DNA of 64,000 nucleotides. It comes from an uncultured bacterium. Lineage in GTDB: Bacteria > Pseudomonadota > Gammaproteobacteria > Burkholderiales > Burkholderiaceae_E. The stretch is from contig CAIVPX010000120.1 of assembly GCA_903907905.1 (NCBI GenBank), positions 1-64,000 of the forward strand. The letters are read 5' to 3'. A program made the position numbers and the translations under genes. The first letter of the stretch is position 1. Each line of letters begins with the position of its first letter. Positions 25,689 through 45,427 of this stretch are shown piece after piece. The notes under the pieces were generated by a model, which saw nothing but the letters and a program-made list of their open reading frames with translations, did no database searches and had not been told where the DNA came from.

Positions 25689-26567
25689 CTAGCGACGTCG
25701 AACTCGCGTAGCCGAGTAAATGCCCGATGCCACGATGACCGCCATGCCGGCCATCGACCACGCATCCGGGAATTCACCGAACACCAGGTAGGCCACCAGA
25801 GCGGTCCAGATGATCTGCGTGTAGCTGAAGGGCGCCAGCCGCGACGCGGGGGCGTACTCAAAGGCTTTGATCAGAATGAGGTGGCTCGATGCGCCGACCA
25901 CGCCCGTGACGGTCATCAGCGCAAAGTGCCACCACGCAATCGGCGTCACCCAGTTGTCCGGAAGTGTCAGGGTGAACATCAGCACACCGATCAGGCCCGG
26001 ATAGAAAATCGAGGTGTAGACGCTCTCCAGCCCCGCGATACGCCGGGTGAGCACCTGGTAGATCGCCATGGCCAGCGCCGTGACCAGAGGCAGTAGCGCC
26101 GCCCAGTTGAACAGCGCCCCGCCGGGCCGCAGAATCAGCATCACCCCAGCGAAACTGCAGGCGATCGCAATCCACTGCCCGCGGTCCACCCGTTCCTTGA
26201 GCATCACGACCGCCAGCAGGGTCACGATCAACGGTGCCACAAAGGTGATGGCGGCCGTTTCGGCAAGCGGCACGCTGCGAATCGCTGTCACGAAGCAGAT
26301 GGCCGCGCCGGGGAGAAGAAAGCCCCTGAGCAACTGAATCGCCGGGTACCGGGTTCGCACGAAACCGAAGCCGCTGCGCGCACCGACCACGGTCACGATG
26401 AGCAGGGTATGAAACAGGAAGCGGATCCAGAGAATGAAACCGACCGGGTAGTACCGGGTCATGTACTTCGAAATTGCGTCGGTGAGTGCGAACAGAAACA
26501 CCGCGATCGCCACCAGCGCAATGCCCCGAAAGGTGCGCGAGGCGTCCTCGCGCGGGATGGGATTCAC
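25689..26567 (-). CDS. EamA/DMT-family transporter
   Basis: 292 residues from a GTG codon. Ten hydrophobic helices arranged as two EamA repeats of five, beginning FRGIALVAIAVFLFALTDAI and repeating near NWAALLPLVTALAMAIYQVL. Drug/metabolite transporters of this type usually export amino acids or small metabolites; the substrate cannot be read from the sequence. The C-terminus ends in Arg-rich cytoplasmic sequence. It is the first gene past the tRNA pair, on the minus strand, 83 bases downstream of the aldolase-like gene, and may be part of the catabolic transcript unit. Confidence 0.85.
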   Translation of the reverse strand: MNPIPREDASRTFRGIALVAIAVFLFALTDAISKYMTRYYPVGFILWIRFLFHTLLIVTVVGARSGFGFVRTRYPAIQLLRGFLLPGAAICFVTAIRSVPLAETAAITFVAPLIVTLLAVVMLKERVDRGQWIAIACSFAGVMLILRPGGALFNWAALLPLVTALAMAIYQVLTRRIAGLESVYTSIFYPGLIGVLMFTLTLPDNWVTPIAWWHFALMTVTGVVGASSHLILIKAFEYAPASRLAPFSYTQIIWTALVAYLVFGEFPDAWSMAGMAVIVASGIYSATRVRRR

Positions 26568-26650: not shown

Positions 26651-27331
26651 TCAGACAGACTGCTGCGGCGAGAGTTTGGCCAGTACCAGCTTGCTTGCGC
26701 CACTGATGTCGCCGAGCTTTTCACCTTGTCGAAGGCGACGGTGCAAATCGGGCTCGACGGCCATTTTGCCAAGCGCCCAGTCGGCGGTGGCCTCGATGAC
26801 ATCGGCGGGCAGGAACAGCACGCCGCTTTCATCGGCCAGCACGGCATCGCCGGGGTTGACGCTGACGCCTCCGCAGTTGATGGGCGTATTGAAGGCGCCG
26901 CCGATGTTGTAGAGGCGCGTGGTGATCGGCGACAGACCCCGGCACCAGACTGGGAAGTCTTCGCCGCGGATCTCGGAAAAGTCGGTACACGGGCCGTCGA
27001 CGATCGCGCCCACCGCGCCCGAGGCCTTGGTGGCCACCGCCACGCCGCCGCCCATGCAGGCGTGTTTGTTGTCGCCCATGCGGTCGACCACCAGCACGTC
27101 GCCAGGCCGCAGCAGACCGAGCACATGGTGCAGCAAGGTCGAGTCCTGGCCCGGCAGCGCCACGGTGACCGCTGTGCCGGCGATGCGCTTGCCGGGGAGC
27201 AGGCTCTGGATGCCCCGGTCGGCAAAGCCCTGTTGGCGCAGGTGGCCAATGGTGGCGGTTTCGCAGCGACCGAGTTTTTCGATCAGCCTGGCATCGATCT
27301 GTTTGGGCAGGTCTCTGAGAACGAAGGACAT
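26651..27331 (-). CDS. RraA-like / HMG-aldolase-family protein
   Basis: 226 residues from ATG 27331 (AGGAG eight bases upstream). The family includes RNase E inhibitor RraA and 4-hydroxy-4-methyl-2-oxoglutarate/oxaloacetate aldolases. The fold is clear from GKRIAGTAVTV, LRPGDVLVVDRMGDNKHACM and GAVGAIVDGPCTDFSEI. In active aldolases the last motif reads DG-x-x-R-D, where Arg binds pyruvate and Asp helps place the metal; here Thr116 replaces the Arg while Asp117 is kept. So the assignment to the superfamily is firm but aldolase activity is not. Downstream of the dehydrogenase gene on the same strand, it probably belongs to the same catabolic unit. Confidence 0.75.
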   Translation of the reverse strand: MSFVLRDLPKQIDARLIEKLGRCETATIGHLRQQGFADRGIQSLLPGKRIAGTAVTVALPGQDSTLLHHVLGLLRPGDVLVVDRMGDNKHACMGGGVAVATKASGAVGAIVDGPCTDFSEIRGEDFPVWCRGLSPITTRLYNIGGAFNTPINCGGVSVNPGDAVLADESGVLFLPADVIEATADWALGKMAVEPDLHRRLRQGEKLGDISGASKLVLAKLSPQQSV

Positions 27332-27427
27332 CAGGGGCTCTCCTGGTTGGGCCCGCTCAGTGTCGGCGGGCGTTGGAAGTCGGCAGACTCTAAGCGCTTG
27401 ACCGGCGCCCGACAAGCCGGCGGAGGA

Positions 27428-28408
27428 TCAGCGCAGGACAATCTCAAAGTCGGGGATGGGTTCGCCCTGACGCACCCGTTCGATGTTGGCGATCATGCGC
27501 GTGACACACGGGGCGAAGTTGTCGGCGGCAAGCGCGGCCAGGTGCGGCGACACCACGATATTGTCGAGCGTGAGCAGGGGCGAGGTCGGCGGCAGGGGCT
27601 CGATCTCATACACGTCGGTGGCGGCCGCGTGGATGACCCGGTTCTTGAGCGCCCAATAGAGGTCGTCCTCGACAACGATCCCGCCCCGCGCCACATTGAC
27701 CAGCACCGCGCTGGGCTTCATCTTCTCGAAGGCCGCGCGATTGATAAGACCTGCGGTCTGCGCGTTGAGCGGGCAGTTGACGCTGATGATGTCGGCCTCG
27801 ACAAAAATCTGATCAGGCGTGGCGAATTGCGCGCCCAGGGACGCTTCGGTCTGGGCGTCGAGCGGTGTGCGCTTCGAATACATGATGCGGCAGCCGAACC
27901 CCGAGAGCAGCCGGGCCAGTCTCTGGCCGATGGCGCCAAAGCCAATGATGCCGACGGTCTTGCCGGAAATCATGAAACTGTCCTGGGGCAACGGAAAACC
28001 GCGCCACTGGCCCTTCATGAGTTCGGCATGGCCATAGGCAAGGTTGCGGATGGCGGCGATCATCAGGCCCAGGGTGTATTCGGCCACCGGAATCGAATTG
28101 CCGCCTGTGATCCGGGCCACCTGAATGCCGAGTGCGCGAGCCGCCTCGAGATCGAAGTTGTCGACGCCGACGCCCCATTTGTGCAGCAGCTTGAGTCGTT
28201 TCGCCGCCTGCAGCACCGGTGCCGTGACCGGCACCTGACCGGAAATCGCGTACTGCGCGTCCGCGATCATTTCCTTTTGGTGGGATTCGTCGCGACTGCT
28301 GGCACAGACCAGGTCGTATCCAGGGGGCAGCAGGGCGCCAAAGCGCGTCAGGCTGACCGGGTTCAAGGGGTCGAGGATGAGAATTTTCTGGGGGGCGTTC
28401 GAGTTCAT
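27428..28408 (-). CDS. D-isomer-specific 2-hydroxyacid dehydrogenase
   Basis: 326 residues from ATG 28408. NAD(P)-dependent oxidation/reduction of D-2-hydroxyacids and 2-oxoacids. Rossmann motif GIIGFGAIG at about 153-161; catalytic Arg241 (VNVARGG), Glu268 (DVYEIEP) and His289 (SPHLAAL) are all present. After the second strand the sequence is MYSKR rather than an Asp, hinting at NADP preference (inference). It is probably a glyoxylate/hydroxypyruvate-type or phosphoglycerate-like dehydrogenase; the substrate is unknown. Neighbours: RraA-like gene 96 bases downstream and the gamma-glutamyltransferase-like gene 34 bases upstream, same strand. Confidence 0.88.
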   Translation of the reverse strand: MNSNAPQKILILDPLNPVSLTRFGALLPPGYDLVCASSRDESHQKEMIADAQYAISGQVPVTAPVLQAAKRLKLLHKWGVGVDNFDLEAARALGIQVARITGGNSIPVAEYTLGLMIAAIRNLAYGHAELMKGQWRGFPLPQDSFMISGKTVGIIGFGAIGQRLARLLSGFGCRIMYSKRTPLDAQTEASLGAQFATPDQIFVEADIISVNCPLNAQTAGLINRAAFEKMKPSAVLVNVARGGIVVEDDLYWALKNRVIHAAATDVYEIEPLPPTSPLLTLDNIVVSPHLAALAADNFAPCVTRMIANIERVRQGEPIPDFEIVLR

Positions 28409-28442
28409 TGGAGGATTCAGCCTTTGAGTGCGTGAGCGGGGT

Positions 28443-30134
28443 TCAGGCGATCGAGAAGCCGATCCCGGCCTGAGCGAGGCCGCCCGCGATGGCGACAGGG
28501 GTGCCATCGGCGCGCCAGCATGCCGCGCCGGTCATCATGCCCTCGGCATCGATGGACACCGCATTCATGCCGCCGGCAATTCGCGGCACTTTTTGCACTG
28601 AATGGCCGCGCTTTGTCAGGCCGAGGGCGACGTCGTCGGCGAGGGTGTCCTCGAGTTCGAGCGTGCCGCCTTCGGTCCAGACACGCGGCGCTTCGACGGC
28701 CTGCTGCAGGCTCATGCCGTGGTCAACGAGGTTGATGATGGCCTGCAGCGCCGAGGGAAAGATGCGCAGGCCTCCGGGCAGACCGAGCGCCACCCAGGGG
28801 GCGCCGTCCTTGAGCAGCATCATCGGTGACATGGAGGTAAAGACCCGTTTGCCGGGCGCGATCGAGAGAGCGTGACCGGGGTGGGGGTCGAAGTTGTACA
28901 TGTAGTTGTTGGCGATCATGCCGGTGCCGGGAATTCGCACGCAGGCGCCGAACAGCCCGTTGATGGTCTGCGTGGTGGCGACCACATTGCCAGCGGCATC
29001 GGCTACCGTGACATGGGTGGTATCGGCCGATTCGTGCCTTGGCAGGCCAGGCTGCCAGGTTTGCGCCCGATGCGGATTGATCTGCGCGCGGCGTTCGGCG
29101 GCGTAGGCATCGGAGATCAGATCGTCAATGGGAACGTCGACGAAGTCGGGATCGGCGGTGGCAAGCGATCGGTCCGCGAAGGCGATGCCCAGGACTTCGG
29201 CCAGCAGGTGGATGCTGGCGGTCGAACCGAAGCCCAGGCCGCGAAGATCGAAGCCTTCGAGGATTTTGAGCATTTGCACGATGTGTACCCCCGACGAGGC
29301 GGGGGGCGGAGGGCCGAGCACCTCGACGCCACGGTAGTGGCCGCGAATCGGTGCGCGCTGTCGGGTGCGGTAAGCGGCGAGATCGCCCGGCGTGAGGACG
29401 CCGCCTCGGCGCGAAAGTTCGTCGATCAGGGCGAGGCCAAGCGGGCCCTCATACAGGGCGCTCGGACCGCTGCGCGCGATCTCGCGCAGGGAGGCGCCGT
29501 AGTCGGCCTGAACGAGCCGGGTGCCGGCCAGGATCGGTCGGCCCTGCGGCAGAAACAGTTCGGCCAAGCCAGGGTCTTGCGACAGCACCCGCGCATGGTT
29601 GGCGGCATTGGTGGCGAGGTAGGGCGTGACCGTGAAACCTCGCTCGGCAAGCCGGATCGCAGGCTCGAGCACATCGGCCAGCGGCAGGCTGCCTCGGGTT
29701 CGCAGCAGTTCGCACCAGCCGGCGAGGGCCCCAGGCACCGCCACGGCCAGGGCGCCATACTCATTGGCCTGATTTCGGGTGAGCCGGTAGCTCGCCAACT
29801 CGGTGGACAAGGGCTCGAACATGTCCGCGCGCGCCGCCAGTGGGGCGGTGCTCAATCCGTCGATGATGCTGTGTTCGCCCGATGCGCTTCGCACGTGCGC
29901 CATGCCGCCGCCAAGAACGCCGACCATCATCGGCTCGACGACGGTCAGCGCAAACAGCGCCGCCACTGCGGCATCGATTGCATTGCCGCCCTCGAGCAAG
30001 ATCTGCGTGGCGGCACCCGACGCGAGCGGATGGTTGGTGACCACCATGCCACGCGAGCCTCGCGCGGGATGCTTGCGGCAGACGAAGGGTGCATCGAAAG
30101 CGCCAGCGACCTGCTGGGCCGCACCGGTACTCAT
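28443..30134 (-). CDS. Gamma-glutamyltransferase family protein
   Basis: 563 residues from ATG 30134, overlapping the stop of the acyl-CoA synthetase gene. N-terminal nucleophile hydrolase made as a proenzyme that cuts itself before a Thr. The cleavage/nucleophile site is visible as DTTHVTVAD with Thr373, then NGLFGACVRIPGTGMIANN and the oxyanion PGG in LGLPGGLRIFPSALQ. No signal peptide is seen, so it is probably cytoplasmic, unlike periplasmic E. coli GGT. Many such proteins in catabolic clusters act on amides other than glutathione (cephalosporin-acylase-like), so a general acylase/amidohydrolase is equally possible. Confidence 0.82.
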   Translation of the reverse strand: MSTGAAQQVAGAFDAPFVCRKHPARGSRGMVVTNHPLASGAATQILLEGGNAIDAAVAALFALTVVEPMMVGVLGGGMAHVRSASGEHSIIDGLSTAPLAARADMFEPLSTELASYRLTRNQANEYGALAVAVPGALAGWCELLRTRGSLPLADVLEPAIRLAERGFTVTPYLATNAANHARVLSQDPGLAELFLPQGRPILAGTRLVQADYGASLREIARSGPSALYEGPLGLALIDELSRRGGVLTPGDLAAYRTRQRAPIRGHYRGVEVLGPPPPASSGVHIVQMLKILEGFDLRGLGFGSTASIHLLAEVLGIAFADRSLATADPDFVDVPIDDLISDAYAAERRAQINPHRAQTWQPGLPRHESADTTHVTVADAAGNVVATTQTINGLFGACVRIPGTGMIANNYMYNFDPHPGHALSIAPGKRVFTSMSPMMLLKDGAPWVALGLPGGLRIFPSALQAIINLVDHGMSLQQAVEAPRVWTEGGTLELEDTLADDVALGLTKRGHSVQKVPRIAGGMNAVSIDAEGMMTGAACWRADGTPVAIAGGLAQAGIGFSIA

Positions 30135-31672
30135 CGCGCGCCGTCCCCGGCGCTGTCCTGGCTCAGCTGCTGACGCAGGGCCGTTTTGAGCACCTTGCCA
30201 TAATTGTTTTTGGGCAGGGCCTCGATGAAGCGGTAGCGCTTCGGGCGCTTGAAGCGCGCAATGTGCTCGAGACACAGGCTGTCGAGGGACTGCTCGCTGA
30301 GTTCGGCACCCGGCCGGCGAACGACGAAGGCCACGACCTCCTCACCCCACTCGGGGTGACTTGCGCCGACCACCGAGCACTCGAGCACCGCAGGGTGCTT
30401 GAGCAGAACCTCTTCGATCTCGCGGGGATAGATGTTGCTGCCCCCGCTGATGATCAGATCCTTGGAGCGGTCACGCAGCGTCAGGTAACCCCGCTCGTCC
30501 ATCATGCCGACATCACCGGTCCAGAGCCATCCCTCGCGCAGGGCGCTGCGGGTGGCCGGCTCGTTGTTCCAGTAGCCGGCCATGACACAGTCGCTGCGGG
30601 TGACCACCTCGCCGACTTCGCCGACCGGGAGTTCGAGCCCATCTTCGCTGAACACCCGGATTTCGATGCCGGTGCGTGCGGTGCCGGCCGAGCCGAGCCG
30701 GGCAAGATGCGCAGCATCGCCGCTGCCGAGGTGATCCTGCTTGGACAGCCCGGTCAGCGTCATGGGGCTTTCGCCCTGGCCGTAGAGCTGAAAGAGGCGG
30801 GGGCCCAGCACGTCGAGCGCCCGCTGCAGGTCGCTGACATACATGGGCGCGCCACCGTAGTAGAGGGTTCGCAGGCCGGGGTGGGGCGCACTTGCGCCGC
30901 CCGACTGCAGCAGGCGGATCACCATCGTGGGGGCAGCGAAGAAGGTGATGTTGCGATGGCGCTCGAAGCGCTCGAAGATCAGGTCGGGTTCGAAGCCGGA
31001 CAGGATGATCTGGTGGCCGCCAGCGAACAGGTGGGGCAGGGCATAGAGGCCCGAGGCATGCGAGAGCGGCGCGGCATGGACCTTGGTGTCACCCGGGCTC
31101 ACGTGTTCGATATCGGCAAAATAGGCCCAGGACATCACCATCAGGTTGCGGTGCGAGAGCATCGCGCCTTTGGGCTTTCCGGTGGTGCCACTGGTGTAGA
31201 ACAACCAGGCGATGTCGGTCGCGGGCACGTCGATGCAGGCGAGCGGCGTCGCACTGAGCAGCGCCGCGTAGGCCTGGCTCTGCACGACACAGACAAAGGG
31301 CGGCACGTCGAGTTGGCCCAGCACCGGCGCAAGATCGTCGATCAGGGCTTCGCTGGTGAACACCGCCCGTGCAGCGCTGTCGGTGACGATGTGGCTGACT
31401 TCGCGCGGGTGCAGCTTTGAGTTGACAGGCACCACGCACAGACCCGCAGCCCAGCAGGCGAACACCAGTTCAAAAAACTCCGGGCGATTCTCCATGCAGA
31501 GGACCACCCGGTCGCCGGTATTCAAGCCCGGTTGAGCCCGCAGCGCACCCGCCAGCCTTTGTGTGCGCTCGCCCAGTTCGGCAAAGCTGATCGATTGCGT
31601 GCCGTAGGAGACGGCGCTCAGGTGCGGGTGGCTGCGAATGCGATTGAACAGAACCTGGGCGATGTTGGGCAT
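30131..31672 (-). CDS. AMP-dependent acyl-CoA synthetase (first of two)
   Basis: 513 residues from ATG 31672; a longer start would overlap the upstream gene. Forms acyl-AMP then acyl-CoA from a carboxylic acid. P-loop FYTSGTTGKPKGAMLSH, A5-type motif FQLYGQGESP, adenylate motif GWLWTGDVGMMDERGYL, hinge DRSKDLIISGGSNIYPREIE, and the C-terminal lysine in PKNNYGKVLKTAL. The substrate-pocket residues do not let me name the acid. Between the GrdB-like gene and the GGT-like gene, with an ATGA overlap to the latter, so it is part of a coupled operon. Confidence 0.88.
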   Translation of the reverse strand: MPNIAQVLFNRIRSHPHLSAVSYGTQSISFAELGERTQRLAGALRAQPGLNTGDRVVLCMENRPEFFELVFACWAAGLCVVPVNSKLHPREVSHIVTDSAARAVFTSEALIDDLAPVLGQLDVPPFVCVVQSQAYAALLSATPLACIDVPATDIAWLFYTSGTTGKPKGAMLSHRNLMVMSWAYFADIEHVSPGDTKVHAAPLSHASGLYALPHLFAGGHQIILSGFEPDLIFERFERHRNITFFAAPTMVIRLLQSGGASAPHPGLRTLYYGGAPMYVSDLQRALDVLGPRLFQLYGQGESPMTLTGLSKQDHLGSGDAAHLARLGSAGTARTGIEIRVFSEDGLELPVGEVGEVVTRSDCVMAGYWNNEPATRSALREGWLWTGDVGMMDERGYLTLRDRSKDLIISGGSNIYPREIEEVLLKHPAVLECSVVGASHPEWGEEVVAFVVRRPGAELSEQSLDSLCLEHIARFKRPKRYRFIEALPKNNYGKVLKTALRQQLSQDSAGDGAR

Positions 31673-31679
31673 GGGGCGC

Positions 31680-32642
31680 TCATCCGCGATAGGTGGAGGG
31701 TTGGGGGGCGGTGAGGGTGGCATCGCGTACGCCCTGAGCGACTGACTTGACCTGGTCGTTGGCGCGCCGACGCTCGGCGATGTCCTCGGGGCTCAGCCTC
31801 GCCGGATTCATGAACCCCAGCCGCCACTGCGCGGGCCCGCTCCAGCGAAGCGGGTTCTGCACGGTGGTGCGTGCCGCAGGCGCCGACTCGAGGACGCGCA
31901 GCGCGAGGTCAAGCGTGGCGTCCTGCGAGGTCGTATCGAAGGGGCGACCGGCCGCAGCCCCGAGCGGGAAATCGCTGAACAGAAATCTTGGCACCCCGAC
32001 GTATTCGACGATGTCGCGCGCGCACCCCATGATCACCGTCGGGATGCCGTGAGCTTCCAGGTGGCGTGCGGCGAGCGACAGGGTCTGGTGGCACACCGGG
32101 CAGTTGGCGACCAGAATGGCCGCTTGCGCCTCGTCGGACCGGCAGCGCGCGAGCATCTCGGGCAGATCGACCTCGAGCGTATGTCGCTGGCTCCGGTTGG
32201 TGGGGATGCCGTGAAATCTCGGGCTGAGGCTGCCGATCCGGCCGCGAGCAAGCGCGCGCCTGAGCGCGGGCAGCGGGAACCAGATGTTGGGGTCGTCCTC
32301 AAGGTTGTCGCGGTCGACGCCCACGTGCGAAATCCGCAGATCGTGGTCGGTCTCGACCGAGCCCGAATACACCTCGTAAAACTTGGCCGCCGCGTTGTAG
32401 GGCGCGCGAACGCTCTGGTCGCCCTTGTCGGCCTGAAACGGGGCCGCCGTGGTGAGCAGCACGACCCGGGTGTTCGCCAGCGGCCGGGTCAGCGGCGAGA
32501 AGGGAACCTCAAGGTAGTGAGCGTATCGGTAAGGGTTGCCGTAACCGAGCGCGTCATACCATTGATGCGTTCGGTCGATGTAGCGAGTCGGCTGATCCCA
32601 GTCGGGGGCGAAGCCAAGGGCATCGTGATCGAGGGCGCTCAT
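31680..32642 (-). CDS. GrdB/PrdB-like reductase-family protein, cysteine form
   Basis: 320 residues. Resembles the selenoprotein B subunit of the glycine/sarcosine/betaine/D-proline reductases of Stickland-fermenting anaerobes. Similar landmarks: RYIDRTHQWYDALGYGNPYR, SPLTRPLANTRVVLLTTAAP, the paired GIPTVIMGCARDIVEY, and VPRFLFSDFPLG. The active-site motif is NCPVCHQT with Cys181 and Cys184; in the anaerobic enzymes the first position is often selenocysteine, and no in-frame TGA is needed here. No partner subunits GrdA, GrdC or GrdD are nearby. It is probably an oxygen-tolerant relative with unknown substrate. Divergent from the second acyl-CoA synthetase and heading a minus-strand unit. Confidence 0.7.
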   Translation of the reverse strand: MSALDHDALGFAPDWDQPTRYIDRTHQWYDALGYGNPYRYAHYLEVPFSPLTRPLANTRVVLLTTAAPFQADKGDQSVRAPYNAAAKFYEVYSGSVETDHDLRISHVGVDRDNLEDDPNIWFPLPALRRALARGRIGSLSPRFHGIPTNRSQRHTLEVDLPEMLARCRSDEAQAAILVANCPVCHQTLSLAARHLEAHGIPTVIMGCARDIVEYVGVPRFLFSDFPLGAAAGRPFDTTSQDATLDLALRVLESAPAARTTVQNPLRWSGPAQWRLGFMNPARLSPEDIAERRRANDQVKSVAQGVRDATLTAPQPSTYRG

Positions 32643-32802
32643 CGCGGGCTGTCTCTGGGGTTACGTGGCCGGGAGCATGATCTTCGCACGCTCGAGCGAC
32701 GTCTGCAGCGTGCGGTTCGCGCCGTCGGACCCGGCACCCTGTCCAGCGTTCTCGCGATGGCACAATCGCTCCCTCGAGCCCGGAGCTTTCTGGAGCCCAC
32801 CG

Positions 32803-34524
32803 ATGAATCCGTCCTTGACGGCAAACGGCCTGCATGCGGGGGTCTGGCCCGCCCACGTTCCCCGGCGATTGCCGCGCCATGAAGCAACCCTCTGGCACAA
32901 CCTCGAGACCAGTGCCCTGCGTGATCCCGACAAGGACGCGCTGATATTCTTTGGCCGGCGCTTTTCCTTTGGCGACATACTTCAGCAGGCCGAGCGAATT
33001 GCGGGCTGGCTGCAGACAACAGCGGGTGTTAAGCCAGGTGACCGGGTGCTGCTCTCCATGCAGAACTCGCCCCAGTTCATCATCGCCTTCATGGCCGTGC
33101 TGCGCGCCGGGGCGGTGGTGGTCCCGGCCAACCCCATGAGCCGAGCCGCCGAGTTCGCCTACACCCTCGCGGACCCGCAGGCGCGTGTCGCCATCTGCTC
33201 ATCCGATCTCGTGGGCGAGATGGTGGCGGCGCAGGCGCTTGTCGAACCCGATCAAACCCTGCGGCACCTTCTCGTGGCGCGCTACACCGACTGCATGCCC
33301 GATCCCTGCGAGGCGGCCGAGAGCCCCCCCGATGCCTGGTGGGACTGGCTCGCTGCCGAGCCTGCCTTGCCGGAATGGGCGACACGCTGGACCGAGGCGC
33401 TCGGGGCGGATCGGGTGCCTCGCGCCTACGAGGGTCGGGCCGACGAGCTTGCGGCCATCTGCTATACCTCGGGAACCACCGGCAAACCCAAGGGCTGCAT
33501 GCATACGCACCGCAGCCTGGGGCACAACGTCCGGGCGAGCCCGCTCTGGACCGGGGGCAGCGCCTCGGACGTGGCGCTCGGCGTGGTGCCCGTGTTTCAC
33601 ATCACCGGCATGCAGTACTGCATGAACATCCCGCTCTATCTGGGATCGACCGTGGTGCTGATGCCCAGGTGGGATCGGGAACTGGCCGGGCGGTTGATCT
33701 CGCGGTATGGGGTCACGACCTGGACCAATATCCCGACCATGGTGATCGACCTGCTCGGCAGCCCCCATTTCGGGCGCTTCGATCTGTCGAGCCTGCGCTA
33801 CATTGGCGGGGGCGGTGCCGCCATGCCCGAGGCGGTGGCCTTGCGTCTGTTCGACTCGTACGGGCTGCGCTACATCGAGGGCTACGGCCTGACCGAAACC
33901 GCCGCACCGTCCCACAGCAATCCGCCGGATGCGCCCAAACGCCAGTGCCTCGGTATTCCCCATATCGGGGTCGATGCACGCATCATCGATCCCGAGACGC
34001 TGCGCGAACTGCCGCAGGGCGAAACCGGCGAAATCGTCATCGACGGCCCGCAGCTTTTCGTGGGCTACTGGCAGCGTCCGCAGGACAGCGCGCAGGCGTT
34101 CATCGAGATCGGGGGGCGACGCTTTTTTCGAACGGGTGACCTGGGCTGGATCGATGAGTCGGGCTACTTCTTTATTGCCGACCGTCTCAAGCGGATGATC
34201 AACGCCAGCGGGTTCAAGGTATGGCCGGCCGAGGTGGAGAATCTGCTGTTTTCGCACCCGGCGGTGCAGGAGGCCTGCGTGATCGCGTCGACCGACGATT
34301 ATCGGGGCGAAACCGTCAAGGCAGTGATCGTGCTGCGCCCCGAGTGGCGCGGTCGCGTGAGCGCAAGCGACATCGAAGCCTGGTCGCGCGAGCGCATGGC
34401 CGCCTTCAAGGTGCCGCGACGTGTCGCCTTTGTGGACGCCCTGCCCAAGTCGGGATCGGGCAAGGTGATGTGGCGATTGCTGCAGGAGCAGGAAGCGGCG
34501 GGCCCTAGGCAAACGAAACGCTGA
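32803..34524 (+). CDS. AMP-dependent acyl-CoA synthetase (second)
   Basis: 573 residues from ATG 32803 (GGAG at 32792-32795); the frame extends further upstream without conservation. Same reaction class as the first synthetase. Motifs: CYTSGTTGKPKGCMHTHRS, YIEGYGLTETAAPSHSNPP, FFRTGDLGWIDESGYFFI, DRLKRMINASGFKVWPAEVE, and PKSGSGKVMWRLL with the C-terminal lysine. It looks like the medium/long-chain or aromatic acid class. It is the only plus-strand gene in this part of the cluster, divergent from the GrdB-like gene, and its last 20 bases overlap the end of the convergent hydratase gene. Confidence 0.88.
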   Translation: MNPSLTANGLHAGVWPAHVPRRLPRHEATLWHNLETSALRDPDKDALIFFGRRFSFGDILQQAERIAGWLQTTAGVKPGDRVLLSMQNSPQFIIAFMAVLRAGAVVVPANPMSRAAEFAYTLADPQARVAICSSDLVGEMVAAQALVEPDQTLRHLLVARYTDCMPDPCEAAESPPDAWWDWLAAEPALPEWATRWTEALGADRVPRAYEGRADELAAICYTSGTTGKPKGCMHTHRSLGHNVRASPLWTGGSASDVALGVVPVFHITGMQYCMNIPLYLGSTVVLMPRWDRELAGRLISRYGVTTWTNIPTMVIDLLGSPHFGRFDLSSLRYIGGGGAAMPEAVALRLFDSYGLRYIEGYGLTETAAPSHSNPPDAPKRQCLGIPHIGVDARIIDPETLRELPQGETGEIVIDGPQLFVGYWQRPQDSAQAFIEIGGRRFFRTGDLGWIDESGYFFIADRLKRMINASGFKVWPAEVENLLFSHPAVQEACVIASTDDYRGETVKAVIVLRPEWRGRVSASDIEAWSRERMAAFKVPRRVAFVDALPKSGSGKVMWRLLQEQEAAGPRQTKR

Positions 34525-35311
34525 CCTGCCCCAGCACCCCGAAGTCGCCTGTGACATGGGTTGTCGGGGCGATCGGAATCGGCGTCACGCAGGTGCCGGT
34601 GGTGACCACCTCGCCTGCGGTGAGCGTCATGCCCTGACTGGACAGCTCATTGACGAGCCAGCACAGTGCGAGTCGGGGATCGCCGAGCACGTTGCGCCCA
34701 ATGCCGTCGATGCGGCCCAGACCGCTGACCTCACCTGCCACACGGTGGGCCGAGAGATCGATCTTGCGCCAGTCGGCCGGGGCGGCTGGCCCTAGCACGA
34801 AGCGGTCGGCGCAGGCATTGTCGGCGATGAGCTGCGCGGCGCCGGCGCTGACGAACTGCCGGAATCGCGAATCGGGAATTTCGATCGCCGGATGCAGGGT
34901 ACCCACGGCGGCCATCACCTCGTCGAGCCCATAGCCAAAATCCCGCGGCGCCAGTGATCGGGCCATGACGAATGCAAACTCGAGCTCGCCTACGCGCATC
35001 AGGTTGTTGCCCAGGGCCACGGTGCTGCCATCGGCGTGTACCTGGCTGTCGTGCAGTCGACCCGCCAGCGGACCATCGACGCCGATATGCGACTGCCCCG
35101 CTGCGCTGGTGGCGGCGATTTTCCAACCGTACGCGCCTCGCCCGGACAGGCTCAGCATGGCCTGCTGGATCCGATAGCCCTGGGTTCGCGACACGGGTCG
35201 GCAGGAAGGGGGCAGGGCGTCGACCGTGGTTTGCGTTTGCCAGCGGTCGAGCAGAATGGCGGCGGCCTCCTGAGCGTTTTGGAGGGTCTCGAGGGTGGGT
35301 TGATCAGGCAT
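34505..35311 (-). CDS. 2-keto-4-pentenoate hydratase (MhpD-like)
   Basis: 268 residues from ATG 35311. Hydratase/decarboxylase of the fumarylacetoacetate-hydrolase superfamily, acting on 2-hydroxypentadienoate-type products of aromatic meta-cleavage. Landmarks: YGWKIAATSAAGQSHIGVDG, LMRVGELEFAFVMARSL with the metal-binding Glu residues, and LHPAIEIPDSRF, followed by ADNACADRFVLG. It overlaps the MFS gene upstream by eight bases and the convergent synthetase gene downstream by 20 bases, implying tight packing. Its exact substrate is unknown. Confidence 0.85.
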   Translation of the reverse strand: MPDQPTLETLQNAQEAAAILLDRWQTQTTVDALPPSCRPVSRTQGYRIQQAMLSLSGRGAYGWKIAATSAAGQSHIGVDGPLAGRLHDSQVHADGSTVALGNNLMRVGELEFAFVMARSLAPRDFGYGLDEVMAAVGTLHPAIEIPDSRFRQFVSAGAAQLIADNACADRFVLGPAAPADWRKIDLSAHRVAGEVSGLGRIDGIGRNVLGDPRLALCWLVNELSSQGMTLTAGEVVTTGTCVTPIPIAPTTHVTGDFGVLGQVSVSFA

Positions 35312-36509
35312 GGTTGCGATCCTTATCGTGGGCAAGTTGCTCGGGCTGACGCAGTGCGAGCGCCGCGCCCCCGAGCAGCAGAAGCGCCGAGACGGCCAGT
35401 CCGGGCCGAAGCGACCCCATGAGGTCAGCCAGCCAGCCCGCAGCGAGGGGCCCCGCCACCTGGCCTGCAGCGAAGACGATGGTGAAGCCCGCCATGGCAC
35501 TGCCCCAGGCGGGCATCGGGATGCCCTTCTTGACCAGGCTCTGGATGGCCGAGGGAATGGAAAACATGGCCAGACCGAACAAGGCCGCCGAGAGCATCAG
35601 CGAGACGTTTGACGCGTCGAGCAGCGGGAGTGCGGCGCCTAGCGCCAAGACTGCCATGGCAGCGGCCAGCGGTCGCCCCCCCGGCCAGTTTTCGACGGGC
35701 TTGCGCCAGACGGCGGGCGCGATCAGGGTGGTGAGGCCCAGCAGGGTCCAGGCGCTCATCACTGTCGCGGTCGACGCGCCGTTCTCGCGCATCCAGGCGA
35801 TCACGAAGGTCATGTAGCCGATGTAGCCCAGGCCGAAGCACAGGTAGGTCATCAGCGCCCGATAAAGGGGCGCAATCGACGCCCGGCTTCGCGCGGCGCT
35901 CGATCCGGGCTCCTGAATGCGCCGGGCAGCCCAGATCGAGACCGTCGTCATGCCGATGGCCAGCACGCCCATGGTCTGCCAGGCCAGGGGCCAGGCCGAG
36001 TGTCCGCGCAGATCGAGCAAGAGCGGGATGGCGATGCCGCACAGCATCAGGCCGATGCCGCCGCCGGCGAAGTAGACGGCGATGGTCGTTGAGGCCATTG
36101 AGGGCCGCGAGGGCAGGATGTTGGCGGACAGCGCTCCCCCGCAGATGAACACCGCCGCGCCGCCCAAGCCCCCCAGGGCGCGCATGAGACTTAGCAGGTC
36201 GGGGTGGCGACTCAGCCCGGTCGCCAGGATAGCGAGCGAGGTGAGGGCCATACCGGCGCCGAACAGGAAGCGGTTGCCTAGGCGGTCGACCCAGAGGCGC
36301 GTCAGGACGGCGCCCGCCAGATAGCCCAGCGCATTGGCGGTGTTGAGCCAGCCCGCCTGCGAGTAGCTGAGCAGGAGGTCGTCGCGCATGGCCGGCAGCA
36401 CCAGCGCATAGGCAAACCGCGCAAACGAGTTGGAGACCGCAGGCCCGAACGAGAGCAGGAAAGCCAGCAGCAGCCCGGACAGGCGCGGGTCGGGGCTGCG
36501 CAGCGTCAC
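35304..36509 (-). CDS. YbfB/YjiJ-type MFS transporter
   Basis: About 401 residues from GTG 36509, four bases after the CoxM stop; longer frames would overlap that gene. Twelve hydrophobic helices; first is LSGLLLAFLLSFGPAVSNSFARFAYALVLP, and the MFS loop motif between helices 2 and 3 appears in modified form (RLWVDRLGNRFLF). Resembles the YbfB/YjiJ group with unknown substrate. Within the molybdenum hydroxylase operon, so it may import the pathway substrate. Confidence 0.8.
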   Translation of the reverse strand: MTLRSPDPRLSGLLLAFLLSFGPAVSNSFARFAYALVLPAMRDDLLLSYSQAGWLNTANALGYLAGAVLTRLWVDRLGNRFLFGAGMALTSLAILATGLSRHPDLLSLMRALGGLGGAAVFICGGALSANILPSRPSMASTTIAVYFAGGGIGLMLCGIAIPLLLDLRGHSAWPLAWQTMGVLAIGMTTVSIWAARRIQEPGSSAARSRASIAPLYRALMTYLCFGLGYIGYMTFVIAWMRENGASTATVMSAWTLLGLTTLIAPAVWRKPVENWPGGRPLAAAMAVLALGAALPLLDASNVSLMLSAALFGLAMFSIPSAIQSLVKKGIPMPAWGSAMAGFTIVFAAGQVAGPLAAGWLADLMGSLRPGLAVSALLLLGGAALALRQPEQLAHDKDRNHA

Positions 36510-36513
36510 CGTC

Positions 36514-37308
36514 TCATCGCGCCTGCATGACGGCCCGCGCCGCCAGCACCGGGATGAGGTGGGCCCGGTACTGAGCGGAGGCATGCAGGTCGCTGTTCAG
36601 GGCACCCGCGTCGACCTTGACCGCGCGGGCGGCTTCGGGGGCCCAGTGAGCGGAAAGTGCCTGCTCGAGCGCGCTCACGCGAAAGGCGCAGGCCGACGCA
36701 CCGGTGACCGCGACTCGCACACCGCTGTCAAAGCGGGCAACGAAGACTCCGACCAGCGCGTAGTGCGAGGCGGGCTGGCGGAACTTGATGTAGGCCGCCT
36801 GGCGTGGCTGCGGAAACTGGACGCTCTGGATGATTTCGTCGGCCTCCAGTGCGGTCTGGTAGATGCCGAGAAAGAAGTCGTCTGCGGCGATGCTTCGCCG
36901 CTGGGTGTGAATCGTCGCGCCCAGACCCAGCACAGCGGCGGGGTAGCAGGCGGCGGGGTCGTTGTTGGCAAGGCTGCCGCCCAGGGTTCCGCGCGCACGC
37001 ACCTGCTGATCGCCGATGCCGTCGGCCAGCGCGGCCAGCGAGGGCAGGTGTTGCATGACCAGTTCGGCGCGCGCGATCTCTGCGTGGGTGGTGGTGGCGC
37101 CGATGCGCAGGCCCTCGGGGCTCACGGAGATGCCGCGCAACTCGGCAATATCGGCGAGGTCGATCAGGTCGGAGGGCGCTGACAGCCCGAGCTTCATCGC
37201 GGGCAGCAGCGATTGCCCCCCGGCGATCAGGCGGGCGTCAGCGGAGCCAGCGATCAGCGACTGGGCGTCGGACATCGAGGCGGGTCGGTGATAGTCGAAA
37301 GGAGTCAT
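36514..37308 (-). CDS. Molybdenum hydroxylase FAD subunit (CoxM-like)
   Basis: 264 residues. Medium subunit of a xanthine-oxidase-family enzyme; binds FAD and passes electrons from the Fe-S subunit to an acceptor. FAD motifs: LIAGGQSLLPAMKLGL at about 27-42 and GTLGGSLANNDPAACYPAAV at about 107-126; N-terminus MTPFDYHRPASMSDAQSLI is typical. No accessory Fe-S motif. Middle of the operon CoxS-CoxL-CoxM-MFS-hydratase (transcribed right to left), 25 bases after the CoxL stop. Confidence 0.92.
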   Translation of the reverse strand: MTPFDYHRPASMSDAQSLIAGSADARLIAGGQSLLPAMKLGLSAPSDLIDLADIAELRGISVSPEGLRIGATTTHAEIARAELVMQHLPSLAALADGIGDQQVRARGTLGGSLANNDPAACYPAAVLGLGATIHTQRRSIAADDFFLGIYQTALEADEIIQSVQFPQPRQAAYIKFRQPASHYALVGVFVARFDSGVRVAVTGASACAFRVSALEQALSAHWAPEAARAVKVDAGALNSDLHASAQYRAHLIPVLAARAVMQAR

Positions 37309-37333: not shown

Positions 37334-39664
37334 TCAGATGAGCTCGCCCTGGAGGGCGCGCCAGACGCGTTCAGAGGTGAAGGGCATCTGCAGGGCGCAG
37401 GCCCGCTCGCCCAGTCCGGCCCGGGCGAGCGCGTCGACGACCGCATTGGCCACGGCGGGCGTAGCGCCGATGGTGCCGAGTTCGCCAACGCCCTTGACGC
37501 CCAGCGGGTTGGTGCGGCAAGGCGTCTGCTGGTCCAGCCGGGTGTCGAAGCGACGGACAACTCCCGCACGGGGCATGGCGTAGTCGAGGAAACTCGCGGT
37601 CAGCAACTGGCCCGACGTGTCATACACGATCTGCTCGCACAAGGCCTGGCCGATGCCTTGTACCGCGCCGCCGTCGACCTGCCCCAGGACGATCATGGGG
37701 TTGACGACCCGGCCCACATCGTTGACCGAGGCATAGCGATCGATGCTGACTTCGCCGGTGTCGGGGTCGACTTCAATTTCGCAGATGTGGCAACCGTTGG
37801 GCCAGCTCGGTCCATCCACCTTGGTGACCGACTCGAGAAAGATGCAGCCGCCTTCCTGTCGGGCGGCCACCTCGAAGAGGCTGAGCTCGATATCGGTGCC
37901 AGCCACCCGGAAATGCCCCTGCTCGTATTCGATGTCGTCCACCGCGGCTTCGAGCGAGTCGGCGGCGTGCTGGCGGGCGATGTCGATGACCTTGGTTGCG
38001 GCCTCTTTCAGCGCCGACCCCGCGGTGAAAAGCGAGCGCGAGCCGCCGCTGCCGAATCCCTCGCCGCGATCGGTATCACCCTGAATGATGCGAACCTGCT
38101 CGATGGGCACGCCAAAGGCGTCGACCGCCAGCTGTGCATAGGTGGTGGCAATGCCCTGGCCCATGGCCTGAGTGGCGGTGAAGATCTCGATGAAGCCGTC
38201 TGACGTGATGTTGACGGTGACGCGTTCATCGAGCACGTTGCCACCGGTCCACTCCAGAAAAGTGGCGATGCCGCGACCCCTCAGCAGCCCGCGCTCGCGG
38301 CTTTGCCGCGCGCGTGCCTCAAAGCCCTGCCAGTCGGCCAGTTCGAGCCCCTGGTCGAGCACCGAGGGGAAATTGCCCGAGTCGTAGGTTTGGGCCATGA
38401 CATTGCGATAGGGCATCTGCTCCGGACGAATCATGTTGCGACGACGCAGTTCGGCGCCATCGATGCCGGTCTTGTGCGCGGCCGCATCCATCAGACGCTC
38501 GATGATGTAGATGGACTCGGGCCGGCCCGCGCCCCGGTAGGCGCCCAGCGGTGTGGTGTTGGACAGCACTGCCCGGATCTTGAGGTCAAGGGTCTGGATG
38601 TCGTAGATGCTGGTGGTGATCCAGGGACCGATGAGCAGGGGAATGGCGCAACCCGATGGGGTGGCGTGGCCACCGATGTCGGCGGTGGTGCTGACGCGCA
38701 TGGCGAGCACCCGGCCGTTCGCGTCGAGGGCCAGTTCGGCCACGCTGCGCAGACCGCGGCCGTGCACTGCGGTGAGGAACTCTTCGCTGCGCTCGGCCAC
38801 CCACTTCACGGTGCACTTGAGATGACGGGCGACGAAGGCCAGGACCAGGTCTTCGGGGTAGGCACCGGTCTTCATGCCGAAGCCGCCACCCACGTCGCCG
38901 ACGACCACGCGCAGGGATTCTTTCGGCGTGCCCAGCAGGCCGGCAATGGTATTGCGCGCGCCGGAGGGCATCTGGGTACTCATGCGCAGCGTGGTGCGAG
39001 CGTCGGACGCGTCGTAGCTCGCGAGCACGGTGCGGGGCTCCATGGGCGAGGGGGCGAGTCGCTGATTGTCGAGTTCGAGGCAGACGGTGTGGGCGGCCTG
39101 GGCGAACGCGCTCGCGGTGGCCTCGGCATTGCCATAGCTGACTTGCGCCACGATGTTGCCCGGCGCACCCTCCCAGATCTGGTGGGCGCCGGGTTGGAGT
39201 GCGGCCTGAGCACTGCTCAAGGCGGGCAGTTCTTCGTAGTCGACCATCACGGCATCGCGGGCGGCGCGTGCGGCGTCGGGGGTGCGCGCCACGACCGCAG
39301 CCACCGCCTCGCCGACAAAGCGCACCACCTCGGGTGCCAGCGCGTGGCGGGGCGGCGGCGGCACCGGTTGGCCGTCCGGTCGTTTGAAGTTCCCGGGCGG
39401 TCCGGCGAAGGTCTTCACGCCTGCCGCAATGAGATCCTTGGCGGTGAAGACGGCGATGACGTCGGGCAGGGCGAGCGCGGCGCTGCTATCGATGCCGAGG
39501 ATGCGGGCGTGGGCCATCGGCGTGCGCACGAACATCAGGTGCAGGCTGCCGGGCGGGGAAAAGTCATCGACGAAACGACCCTGGCCGGTGACCAGGGTGG
39601 GGTCTTCGATCCGGCGAACGGAGTGGCCACTGCCAAAGCGGCCGTAGTTCGAATCGGCTGTCAC
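37334..39664 (-). CDS. Molybdenum hydroxylase large subunit (CoxL-like, non-CO)
   Basis: 776 residues. Carries the molybdopterin cytosine dinucleotide site that hydroxylates the substrate with water oxygen. Pterin-binding GGGFGMK at 259-265; active-site loop AYRGAGR at 375-381; the catalytic Glu lies in GVKGVGELGTIGATPAVANAV near the C-terminus. In true CO dehydrogenase the loop is AYxCSFR, so this enzyme is a type II relative acting on aldehydes or N-heterocycles. It lies 76 bases after coxS. MCD maturation genes such as coxD or mocA are not visible in the window. Confidence 0.92.
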   Translation of the reverse strand: MTADSNYGRFGSGHSVRRIEDPTLVTGQGRFVDDFSPPGSLHLMFVRTPMAHARILGIDSSAALALPDVIAVFTAKDLIAAGVKTFAGPPGNFKRPDGQPVPPPPRHALAPEVVRFVGEAVAAVVARTPDAARAARDAVMVDYEELPALSSAQAALQPGAHQIWEGAPGNIVAQVSYGNAEATASAFAQAAHTVCLELDNQRLAPSPMEPRTVLASYDASDARTTLRMSTQMPSGARNTIAGLLGTPKESLRVVVGDVGGGFGMKTGAYPEDLVLAFVARHLKCTVKWVAERSEEFLTAVHGRGLRSVAELALDANGRVLAMRVSTTADIGGHATPSGCAIPLLIGPWITTSIYDIQTLDLKIRAVLSNTTPLGAYRGAGRPESIYIIERLMDAAAHKTGIDGAELRRRNMIRPEQMPYRNVMAQTYDSGNFPSVLDQGLELADWQGFEARARQSRERGLLRGRGIATFLEWTGGNVLDERVTVNITSDGFIEIFTATQAMGQGIATTYAQLAVDAFGVPIEQVRIIQGDTDRGEGFGSGGSRSLFTAGSALKEAATKVIDIARQHAADSLEAAVDDIEYEQGHFRVAGTDIELSLFEVAARQEGGCIFLESVTKVDGPSWPNGCHICEIEVDPDTGEVSIDRYASVNDVGRVVNPMIVLGQVDGGAVQGIGQALCEQIVYDTSGQLLTASFLDYAMPRAGVVRRFDTRLDQQTPCRTNPLGVKGVGELGTIGATPAVANAVVDALARAGLGERACALQMPFTSERVWRALQGELI

Positions 39665-39740: not shown

Positions 39741-40214
39741 TCAGGATTTCGCCAGTTCGCTTGCAGCCTGCCGCACCGCCTCGACGATATTCACGTAGCC
39801 GGTGCAGCGGCACAGGTTGCCTTCGAGCGCATGTTCGATGGCGGCTTCGTCGGGGTTGGCGTTACGGCTTAGCAGGCTGGCACTGGCCATCACCATGCCC
39901 GGCGTGCAGAAGCCGCATTGCAGGCCATGGCAGTCGACGAAGGCTTTTTGGATCGGGTGCAGGCTGCCATCGGGCGCCGCCAACCCTTCGATCGTAGTCA
40001 CGCTGCGGCCGGCTGCTTGCAGCGCCAGTGTCGTGCAGGCCTTGATGGCATCGCCATCAAGCAGCACCGTGCAGGCGCCACACTGGCTGGTGTCACAACC
40101 GACGTGGGTGCCGGTCAGGCCGAGGTCGACACGAAGGAACTCGATCAGCAGTCGGCGCGCTTCGACCTCGCGCTCGACCTGCCGGCCATTGACGGTGAGT
40201 CGCAGTGTGGGCAT
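39741..40214 (-). CDS. Molybdenum hydroxylase 2Fe-2S subunit (CoxS-like)
   Basis: 157 residues from ATG 40214 (GGAG nine bases upstream); ATG 40220 and 40280 are alternatives. N-terminal plant-type ferredoxin domain with Cys40, Cys45, Cys48 and Cys60 ([14 protein letters not shown]) and C-terminal helical domain with Cys100, Cys103, Cys135 and Cys137 ([17 protein letters not shown]). Size and both clusters match CoxS/XdhC-type small subunits. First gene of the hydroxylase operon; divergent from the thioesterase. Confidence 0.93.
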
Positions 40215-40314
40215 GGGCATGGGCTCCGGAAATTCAGCCTGAGATGGTAACGCGGAACGGTCTTGGGGATCATCTGGCATGATCCGCCGCCTCGACGTTT
40301 TCGGGAGGGGTCTT

Positions 40315-40767
40315 TTGAAGCACGTGTTGAAACTGGCCGTTGAATTCGGCGATTGCGATCCGAGCGGCATCGTCTTTCATCCCAACTTCTTCCGGTGGTT
40401 TGACGCCGCGTCCCTGCACTTCTTTCGCGACAGTGGAGTACCGCCCTGGCGTGAGACTGAGCACACCCACGGCGTCATCGGCACGCCCATTGTGGCCACC
40501 CGCTGCGATTTTCGCGCGCCGGCGCGCTATGGTGACCTGATTGAGGTGCATACCTGCATGTCGGCGTGGGGTGAACGCAAGTTCACGCAGCATCATCAGA
40601 TCGTGAAGGGGGATCAGTTGCTGGTCGAGGCCTTCCACGTTCGGGTGTTCGCGGCGCGTCACCCGGAGGATCCCGCGCGGATCCGGGCCGTTGCTGTACC
40701 GGCCGATTTCCGCGATCTGTGTGACCGGGCCTTCCCGCCGCAGTCGGGCCAGCCCGGCGCAGCGTGA
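40315..40767 (+). CDS. Hotdog acyl-CoA thioesterase (YbgC/4HBT-like)
   Basis: About 150 residues. Hydrolyses an acyl- or aroyl-CoA. The 4HBT active-site block [20 protein letters not shown] is near the N-terminus, containing the catalytic Asp of the Azotobacter/Pseudomonas 4-hydroxybenzoyl-CoA thioesterase type. I favour TTG 40315, which has GGGAGGGG (40303-40310) just upstream and gives the usual N-terminus [15 protein letters not shown] 40279 is also in frame but has a weaker ribosome site and overlaps the alternate CoxS start. Its product role could be releasing CoA from intermediates of the two CoA ligases. Confidence 0.8.
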
Positions 40768-44128: not shown

Positions 44129-44212
44129 GGCGGTCTCCTGTGGCTGGCCGCAGTGTATCGAAGCCACCGGGGAATCGGCATGGGCGGTCGGTCGGGCCGG
44201 TATCATGGCAGG

Positions 44213-45427
44213 ATGGATGCCTATCTATTCGACTGGTTCAATCTGCTGCTGCGCTGGGCGCACGTCATCGTGTCGATCGCCTGGATCGGCTCGTCCTTCT
44301 ACTTTGTCTTTCTCGACAACAGCCTCACCCGCCCGACCGATCCCGCCCTCAAGGACAAGGGCGTCGATGGCGAACTCTGGGCGGTGCATGGCGGCGGTTT
44401 TTACAACCCGCAAAAGTACATGGTCGCCCCGCGCTCGCTACCCGAGCGCTTGCACTGGTTCTTCTGGGAGAGCTATTCCACCTGGCTGACGGGGTTTGCG
44501 CTGTTCACGGTGCTGTACCTGTTCAACGCCGAGACCTTTCTCATTGATCGACGGGTGTTTGACTGGTCGGCGCCGGCGGCGATCGGTGCTGCGCTTGGGT
44601 TTCTGGTGGTCTTCTGGTTTGTATATGACCTCATCTGCCGAGCCCTGGGCCCGCGCCCGCGGGGGGAAACCCTGGTGGGACTCGCTGTGTGCACGGTCGT
44701 GGTTCTCGCCGCCTGGCTCGCCTCCCAGTTGTTTGCCGGGCGGGCCGCCTTCCTGCTGATCGGCGCGATGATGGCCACGGCAATGAGCGCCAACGTGCTG
44801 GTCTGGATCATCCCCGGCCAGCGCACGGTGATCGCGCAGATGCGTGCCGGCTTGCCGGTCGATCCCATCCACGGCCAGCGCGGCAAGCAGCGCAGCGTCC
44901 ACAACACCTACTTCACCCTGCCTGTCCTGATTGCCATGCTGTCCAATCACTATGGCTGGTTGTATCAGTCGCGTCTCAACTGGCTTGTTCTGGTGGTGCT
45001 GATGCTTGCGGGGGCCCTCATTCGGCACAGTTTCGTCGCCCGGCATCGCCTTCATACCCAGGGGCGCCCGGCCAACTGGTGGCCTGCCGTCGCGGGCGTC
45101 GCGCTTATCGTGGGGCTCATGGTGGCGCTTGCGCCGTCGCGGACGCGTGCACCATCGGCCGCTGTGGCGCAGATGTCCGCCGAGCAATTGCGCGAGGCGG
45201 TGCGCGGCGTGGTCGAGCAGCGCTGCCTGATCTGCCATCAGGAAGGTAACGCGCAAAAAGGCGTGATGCTCCACTCCCCCGACAAACTCCAGATGCACGC
45301 ACAGGCCATCTACCAGCAGGTGGTGGTCAGCCGCTTGATGCCGCAGAACAATGCCACGCAAATCAGCGAAGACGAGCGCGCGCTGATTCGCCGCTGGTAC
45401 GAGTCGGGGGCCGGGCAAAAGCCGTAA
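44213..45427 (+). CDS. puuD: Membrane-bound urate hydroxylase PuuD with cytochrome c domain
   Basis: 404 residues from ATG 44213; the open frame reaches far upstream but overlaps the UraD-AllC gene in antisense. PuuD oxidises urate to 5-hydroxyisourate, passing electrons through a C-terminal cytochrome c to the respiratory chain and making no peroxide. N-terminal DUF989 membrane part has about eight helices (first LFDWFNLLLRWAHVIVSIAW, with WIGSSFYFVFLDNSL). The heme-binding CLICH is at 338-342 and the likely axial Met is Met376 (SRLMPQNN). Both parts are intact. Confidence 0.93.
   Translation: MDAYLFDWFNLLLRWAHVIVSIAWIGSSFYFVFLDNSLTRPTDPALKDKGVDGELWAVHGGGFYNPQKYMVAPRSLPERLHWFFWESYSTWLTGFALFTVLYLFNAETFLIDRRVFDWSAPAAIGAALGFLVVFWFVYDLICRALGPRPRGETLVGLAVCTVVVLAAWLASQLFAGRAAFLLIGAMMATAMSANVLVWIIPGQRTVIAQMRAGLPVDPIHGQRGKQRSVHNTYFTLPVLIAMLSNHYGWLYQSRLNWLVLVVLMLAGALIRHSFVARHRLHTQGRPANWWPAVAGVALIVGLMVALAPSRTRAPSAAVAQMSAEQLREAVRGVVEQRCLICHQEGNAQKGVMLHSPDKLQMHAQAIYQQVVVSRLMPQNNATQISEDERALIRRWYESGAGQKP

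Follow-up and report, generated by a model that had tools for sequence, protein, structure and literature searches.

The window analysed here is a 64,000-nucleotide stretch of a contig from an uncultured member of the Burkholderiales. It carries a minus-strand gene for a PrdB/GrdB-like protein, set among genes for CoA ligases, transporters, a molybdenum hydroxylase and purine catabolism:

25689..26567, minus strand: EamA (DMT) transporter
26651..27415, minus strand: RraA-like aldolase family (Pfam)
27428..28507, minus strand: D-2-hydroxyacid dehydrogenase family (Pfam)
28443..30275, minus strand: gamma-glutamyltransferase (GGT)-family protein (TIGR00066, 454.8 bits, above cut-off)
30131..31723, minus strand: acyl-CoA ligase, ANL family (Pfam AMP-binding, 7.9e-77)
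31680..32642, minus strand: PrdB/GrdB-like protein, 320 aa (Pfam and NCBIfam matches)
32091..32102, minus strand: codons of Cys181-Pro-Val-Cys184, the UxxC/CxxC centre, followed by His185 (sequence, alignment, model)
32665..34524, plus strand: long-chain acyl-CoA ligase, divergent from the PrdB-like gene (NF006181, 837.9 bits, above cut-off)
34505..35500, minus strand: 2-oxopent-4-enoate hydratase-like protein (TIGR03220, 1.5e-30, below cut-off)
35304..36584, minus strand: MFS transporter, YbfB type (Pfam)
36514..37308, minus strand: molybdenum hydroxylase FAD subunit (Pfam, NCBIfam)
37334..39664, minus strand: molybdenum hydroxylase large subunit (Pfam, NCBIfam)
39741..40370, minus strand: molybdenum hydroxylase 2Fe-2S subunit
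40817-42307, minus strand: M81/MlrC-type metallopeptidase homologue
42323-44206, minus strand: OHCU decarboxylase fused to an allantoate amidohydrolase-type hydrolase
44312-45427, plus strand: membrane urate oxidase (Urate_ox_N)

The likelier start of the adjoining ANL-family ligase is the ATG at 31672, 7 nt past the stop of the PrdB-like gene. The block running in the order molybdenum hydroxylase, MFS transporter, hydratase, PrdB-like gene, ligase, GGT-family gene, D-2-hydroxyacid dehydrogenase and EamA transporter recurs at locus L030, and at L027 as far as the L027 contig reaches; the RraA-like gene is confined to the window and is missing from the L030 block. Because L030 keeps the molybdenum hydroxylase-to-EamA block with other genes upstream, the purine-catabolism genes (urate oxidase, allantoate; 40.8-45.4 kb) were set aside as a separate neighbour. 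Within 45477-47958 lies an HTH and PBP-like regulator and, beside it, what appears by eye to be a tungstate/molybdate-type pair of ABC transporter genes (46506-47210 and 47164-47958), about 6 kb away from the genes for the molybdenum hydroxylase; 46506-47210 gave no Pfam match.

The first-pass annotation had proposed kinship with GrdB and PrdB, and profile searches bear this out. The best NCBIfam match of the 320-residue protein is TIGR04483, PrdB (E 1.1e-21, 77.3 bits), with further matches to GrdH (3.9e-10), GrdF (3.9e-9) and TIGR01918 (4.4e-6); these are all PrdB/GrdB families, and no membership of an unrelated family emerged. The TIGR04483 score lies far under the curated cut-off of this equivalog (300 bits), so that membership by score is not reached; four relatives score 83.3-92.1 bits. 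Pfam GRDB (PF07355) matches at E 4.5e-4 and 20.1 bits, under its gathering score of 22 bits, and the superfamily relation is therefore carried by the NCBIfam matches. Since every curated cut-off is missed, the window protein is, by profile score, a remote homologue within the PrdB/GrdB superfamily and outside the PrdB equivalog family.

Comparison with the characterized reductases sharpens this placement. PrdB, the 26-kDa subunit of D-proline reductase, has the same domain, and its UxxC(H) centre occupies the corresponding alignment columns; the window protein, however, has Cys rather than selenocysteine (Sec), scores 77 against 300 bits, adjoins a CoA ligase and has no PrdA-type partner that could be found. 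It also exceeds the TIGR04483 profile by about 30 N-terminal and about 50 C-terminal residues. The match to the profiles for GrdB, GrdF and GrdH (protein B of the glycine, sarcosine and betaine reductases) covers residues 44-228 and falls in their C-terminal half, which holds the Sec site; the N-terminal half of these profiles is unmatched, and genes of the GrdE type (PF09338) and GrdA were not found here. RefSeq gives two plasmid homologues the name "glycine/sarcosine/betaine reductase selenoprotein B family protein"; the phrase "selenoprotein B family protein" was found in no open-licence PMC paper.

In the AlphaFold model, which is confident (mean pLDDT 92.1, pTM 0.90), Cys181 follows strand 174-178 and stands just before helix 182-197; the gap between the end of a strand and the start of a helix is a usual place for a reactive cysteine. 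A PDB sequence search with the protein returned nothing significant, and fold searches of the model yielded no specific relative (Foldseek, best E 0.025; VIA-align, best Z 8.7, to LacI-type cores). A function read from the LacI-type matches was dropped, as such an alpha/beta arrangement is common.

The motif itself reads Cys181-Pro-Val-Cys184-His-Gln. Cys181 falls in the selenocysteine column of PrdB and Cys184 in that of its resolving cysteine, so that the active-site pattern of PrdB, Sec or Cys with a second Cys three residues on, is present; in Peptoclostridium acidaminophilum PrdB the corresponding residues are UGTCHR. In an alignment of 24 loci, the Cys181 column is UGA in 16 relatives. 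UGA aligns with Cys181 in relatives 45-48% identical to the window protein (UPVCHQT) and also in an aerobic PrdB type that is more distant and reads mostly UPNCTC. Eight relatives with the HQ motif (L008, L019, L020, L025, L085, L093, L139 and L140; 34-63% identical to the window protein) carry an in-frame UGA exactly at Cys181. The initial claim that CPVC replaces the redox centre thus stands as far as the cysteine goes, but no foreign centre has been put in its place: it is the same UxxC, with Sec changed to Cys.

Conservation of the site was followed in two sets searched without peptide patterns, an order-level set (200 genomes of the order, 18 with homologues) and a phylum-level set (398 genomes, 16 with homologues at E 1e-30 or better), which overlap in the window gene and the gene of G076. 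Cys or Sec at position 181 is kept in 24/24 order-level loci spanning the site (the partial match L024 left out) and in 18/18 phylum-level loci, in keeping with the expectation that Cys181 would be conserved among homologues; Cys184 is kept in 23/24 (Asp in L009) and 18/18, respectively. A separate scan of named genomes, in which the peptide patterns used (CPxCH included) favour the motif, confirmed at least 555 relatives. Among the best 80 of these, which were kept, 78 have Cys and two have UGA at position 181 (L085, 62% identical; L093, 63%), and 77 are titled as Pseudomonadota groups. The gene is therefore not the isolated oddity that it had seemed from the window.

Read as letters, CPVCH is also a CxxCH motif, which could denote a haem c or metal site in an electron-transfer or metal protein. 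This reading is scarcely credible, given that the first cysteine is Sec in eight relatives, that clostridial PrdB has UxxCH, and that no N-terminal export signal is visible by eye; assignment to the c-type cytochromes (CxxCH with two cysteines, plus export) was rejected on the first and last of these counts.

The eight HQ-type Sec forms share a SECIS-like hairpin at nucleotides 14-32 counted from the UGA. Seven of seven pairs form in six of them and 6/7 in the other two, with compensatory changes from C-G to U-A (L139) and from G-C to A-U (L140). Among 91 Cys forms, five pairs are commonest (40 forms), six occur in 19 and seven in one (L058); their median of 5/7 is owed to the coding sequence. 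The codon for Ser189 lies inside the stem and is AGT in 6/6 Sec forms with Ser, as against 5/70 of the Ser-bearing Cys forms (Fisher p 2e-6, with no correction for relatedness), while the other two Sec forms have Cys (TGT) at position 189. When the 61-nt region was folded on its own, three Sec forms had z-scores between -0.55 and -0.86 and the window one of -0.05, values that lend no support; support for the hairpin thus comes from the comparison between sequences and not from single-sequence folding. The Cys form able to make all seven pairs, L058, possibly represents a recent Sec-to-Cys change or a relict.

Genes for Sec decoding accompany most of these forms. SelB above its cut-off together with a tRNA-Sec of at least 69.7 bits was found in four of the six Sec-form host genomes (G137, G175, G334 and G577), and these four carry six of the eight forms. 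The fragmented G578 (host of L093) has a partial SelB match under the cut-off, and its highest tRNA-Sec score (48.7) is on a par with genomes lacking SelB; a search of G052 (host of L020, 84% complete) found neither. Cross-matching is widespread in both searches: SelB also matches in 14 control genomes (two over the cut-off) and tRNA-Sec in 14 (five over). Judged by these comparisons, the UGA relatives look like real selenoproteins; the aligned UGA, SECIS and machinery by which a Sec/Cys pair is recognized were found for relatives and not for the window gene. The window's own genome nonetheless encodes SelB (457.9 bits) and tRNA-Sec (82.7 bits) side by side on contig C14, so the cysteine of the window gene is not there for want of Sec decoding. 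Two paralogues of the clade can occur in one genome, both Sec forms in the single-contig G334 (L139 and L140) and both Cys forms in G407 (L143 and L141).

The pyruvoyl partner of the classical reductases (PrdA/GrdE, PF09338) was found neither in the window's own genome nor in any of the 20 genomes searched, own included, whereas the two clostridial plasmid records used as controls (W01 and W02) both match. GrdA (PF04723) was likewise found in 0/7 genomes, including the window's own, and matches in control record W02. The earlier statement that the other reductase subunits are absent holds for these two families, which were the ones sought; the respiratory host that it had assumed is borne out by three COX1-family matches in the same genome, two of them partial. 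An amine or proline reductase of the genuine Stickland type, its carbonyl partner coming from an unrelated gene, would agree with TIGR04483 as the best NCBIfam match and with His185, present in clostridial PrdB as well (UGTCHR), but the PF09338 and GrdA results and the score far under the PrdB cut-off make such an enzyme distinctly improbable.

A different association emerges from the gene neighbourhoods, compared across 103 loci (the best 80 of at least 555 relatives in named genomes, 20 regions, two plasmids and the window; duplicates kept and contig ends included). In 29/103 loci, 18 of which are outside those assigned to Bradyrhizobium, the gene is followed co-directionally within 300 nt by a CaiB family III CoA-transferase. 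CaiB matches number 34 within 2 kb of the gene (0.0885/kb) and four farther out (0.0032/kb). An acyl-CoA ligase is adjacent or fused in 6/103 loci, with a density of 0.0234/kb near the gene versus 0.0064/kb beyond; three of these six links represent one syntenic block (window, L027 and L030). Neither enzyme occurs within 300 nt co-directionally in 68/103 loci, some of which are on contigs that end there and six of which belong to the remote aerobic PrdB type. Three transferases tested match Pfam CoA_transf_3, and their best NCBIfam matches, all below cut-off, are succinate-glutarate, formyl-CoA, oxalate and mesaconate CoA-transferases. Sec forms take part in this linkage: CaiB is within 300 nt downstream in 3/7 clade Sec-form loci (L085, 3 nt; L093, 100 nt; L139, 158 nt) and 1,027 nt away in L025, while neither CaiB nor a ligase was found within 6 kb of L008, L019 or L140.

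In L040, the ligase and the PrdB-like domain share a single ORF of 824 aa (Pfam, NCBIfam). Its sister L042 shows the same junction over 578 aa, the ligase part being incomplete near the contig start (reading, tblastn); as sisters in the tree, the two fusions are perhaps one event. This quick tree, with 35 open forks, served only for the window/L027/L030 and L040/L042 groupings and for minimum change counts, which over 96/106 rows are five for Sec/Cys and 13 for CaiB adjacency.

The CoA link is uneven among the sets fetched without peptide patterns, and is weak in the order-level sample. At phylum level, CaiB lies within 315 nt downstream in 10/18 loci (nine in one genus and one in G334) and a ligase within 105 nt in 2/18, one being the window. 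Among the 13 order-level loci of the HQ type (L001-L009, L019, L020, the partial L024 and L025), examined with 1.5 kb flanks only, a ligase is present in one, the window, and CaiB within 335 nt in two (one of them the partial match) and at 1,027 nt in one. The UPNCTC-like order-level loci were kept apart as a separate aerobic PrdB type: these remote Burkholderiales Sec proteins (L010-type) have a C-terminal extension, and where they mostly read UPNCTC the window clade has [C/U]P[VI]CHQ. In the six L010-type regions fetched, CaiB was not seen within 6 kb, nor was a ligase adjacent to the gene. A small AhpD/CMD-like gene was seen by eye close to three loci of this remote type (L127, L133 and L146).

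Other partners recur as well. Bug-type receptors are about twice as dense near the gene as far away among the 103 loci, and a lyase with a class I fumarase set is found in L044, L047-L049, L058 and L059. In L062 (9956-11926), the PrdB-like domain has a C-terminal APH/MTR-kinase-like fusion by profile, with an enolase paralogue following next; L069 (9887-11968) has the same PrdB-like/APH/MTR-kinase-like fusion by reading.

The linkage to CoA enzymes, together with the ligase fusion, would also accord with a non-redox Cys181 that receives an acyl group from CoA in an acyl-carrier or transacylase step. This is quite unlikely: Cys184 is conserved (23/24 and 18/18 loci), and Cys and Sec are interchanged between proteins about 60% identical, both of which speak for redox or nucleophilic reductive chemistry. 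Alternatively, the protein might be a thiol-disulfide or thioether reductase for free metabolites or for glutathione or cysteine conjugates, with the CoA enzymes acting later on its product. Such an activity would suit the UxxC/CxxC motif, the GGT-family genes of the window block and of L057 (124 nt downstream), and the glutathione S-transferase (GST) gene 128 nt upstream of the Sec form L008. Within 6 kb, however, GGT and GST genes occur at 4/103 and 3/103 loci, respectively, as compared with 35 for CaiB, and the ligase fusion favours a shared intermediate; we regard this alternative as credible but doubtful.

The linkage instead suggests that a thioester supplies the activation for attack by Cys181 or Sec, and it shifts attention, as regards the substrate, from the N- or S-substituted acids first put forward towards CoA-activated acids. 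Our preferred reading, to which we give a probability of roughly 0.4, is that the window protein may be a stand-alone dithiol (selenol/thiol) reductase of the PrdB/GrdB superfamily, with no pyruvoyl partner, acting on a CoA-activated carboxylic acid. Behind it stand the homology, the equivalence of Cys and Sec with the SECIS-like element, the failure to find PF09338 and GrdA, and operon and fusion links to CoA-activating enzymes in about a third of loci; we infer that an acyl-CoA is acted on directly and cleaved reductively, as well as the leaving group and the electron donor. The CoA ligase (the adjacent gene in the window) or a CaiB-type CoA-transferase would make the acyl-CoA, and Cys181, as the thiolate (in Sec relatives, the selenolate), would attack the electrophilic position beside the thioester carbonyl, displacing the alpha substituent. 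Cys184 would then resolve the adduct, giving a reduced acyl-CoA and a Cys181-Cys184 disulfide that a cellular thiol system could re-reduce.

We put forward more tentatively the possibility that an aerobic, widespread, pyruvoyl-free branch of the Stickland reductases exists, in which the CoA thioester would replace activation by a partner subunit and Cys or Sec would reductively strip the alpha substituent from an acyl-CoA. To our knowledge, such reductive stripping is not known for CoA metabolism.

Parts of this scheme have counterparts in the family. A review describes a carbon-selenium adduct of the Sec nucleophile as the presumed intermediate, cleaved in turn by a thiol, and treats the activation of the carboxylate and alpha-carbon in glycine and proline reductases as unsettled (PMC10298544). 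The fluoroacetate operon may serve as a precedent for C-X cleavage of the GrdB type: excerpts from one study implicate GrdB/GrdE homologues in fluoroacetate C-F cleavage by genomics and transcription (PMC10838667). For these farB/farE fluoroacetate reductase candidates of Cloacibacillus, a GrdB-type nucleophile is likewise proposed for alpha C-X cleavage, but they differ in their anaerobe host, Sec and GrdE-type partner, as far as the same excerpts describe them (PMC10838667).

Sec and Cys forms of PrdB homologues in the ocean are already known. As given in the portions of the two reports available, such homologues, Cys forms included, have been in print from surface-ocean metagenomes since 2005 (PMC1088965, PMC2398784); PrdB ranks among the commonest surface-ocean selenoproteins, with 42/310 genes (PMC1088965), and 235 surface-ocean sequences were reported (PMC2398784). 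These selenoproteins (Sargasso Sea, GOS) likewise include Sec and Cys UxxC forms outside the classical Stickland anaerobes, a likeness drawn by description only. Among open-licence PMC papers, none was found on a CoA-enzyme linkage of PrdB-like proteins.

D-proline fermentation would be unexpected in the surface ocean, where PrdB homologues abound. A clade in which Sec and Cys are interchangeable, and which is often linked in operons to CoA-activating enzymes and in one case fused to them, supplies named genes through which the role of such proteins in air could be traced. If the CoA reading is true, it would also bear upon the means of carboxylate activation in the classical reductases.
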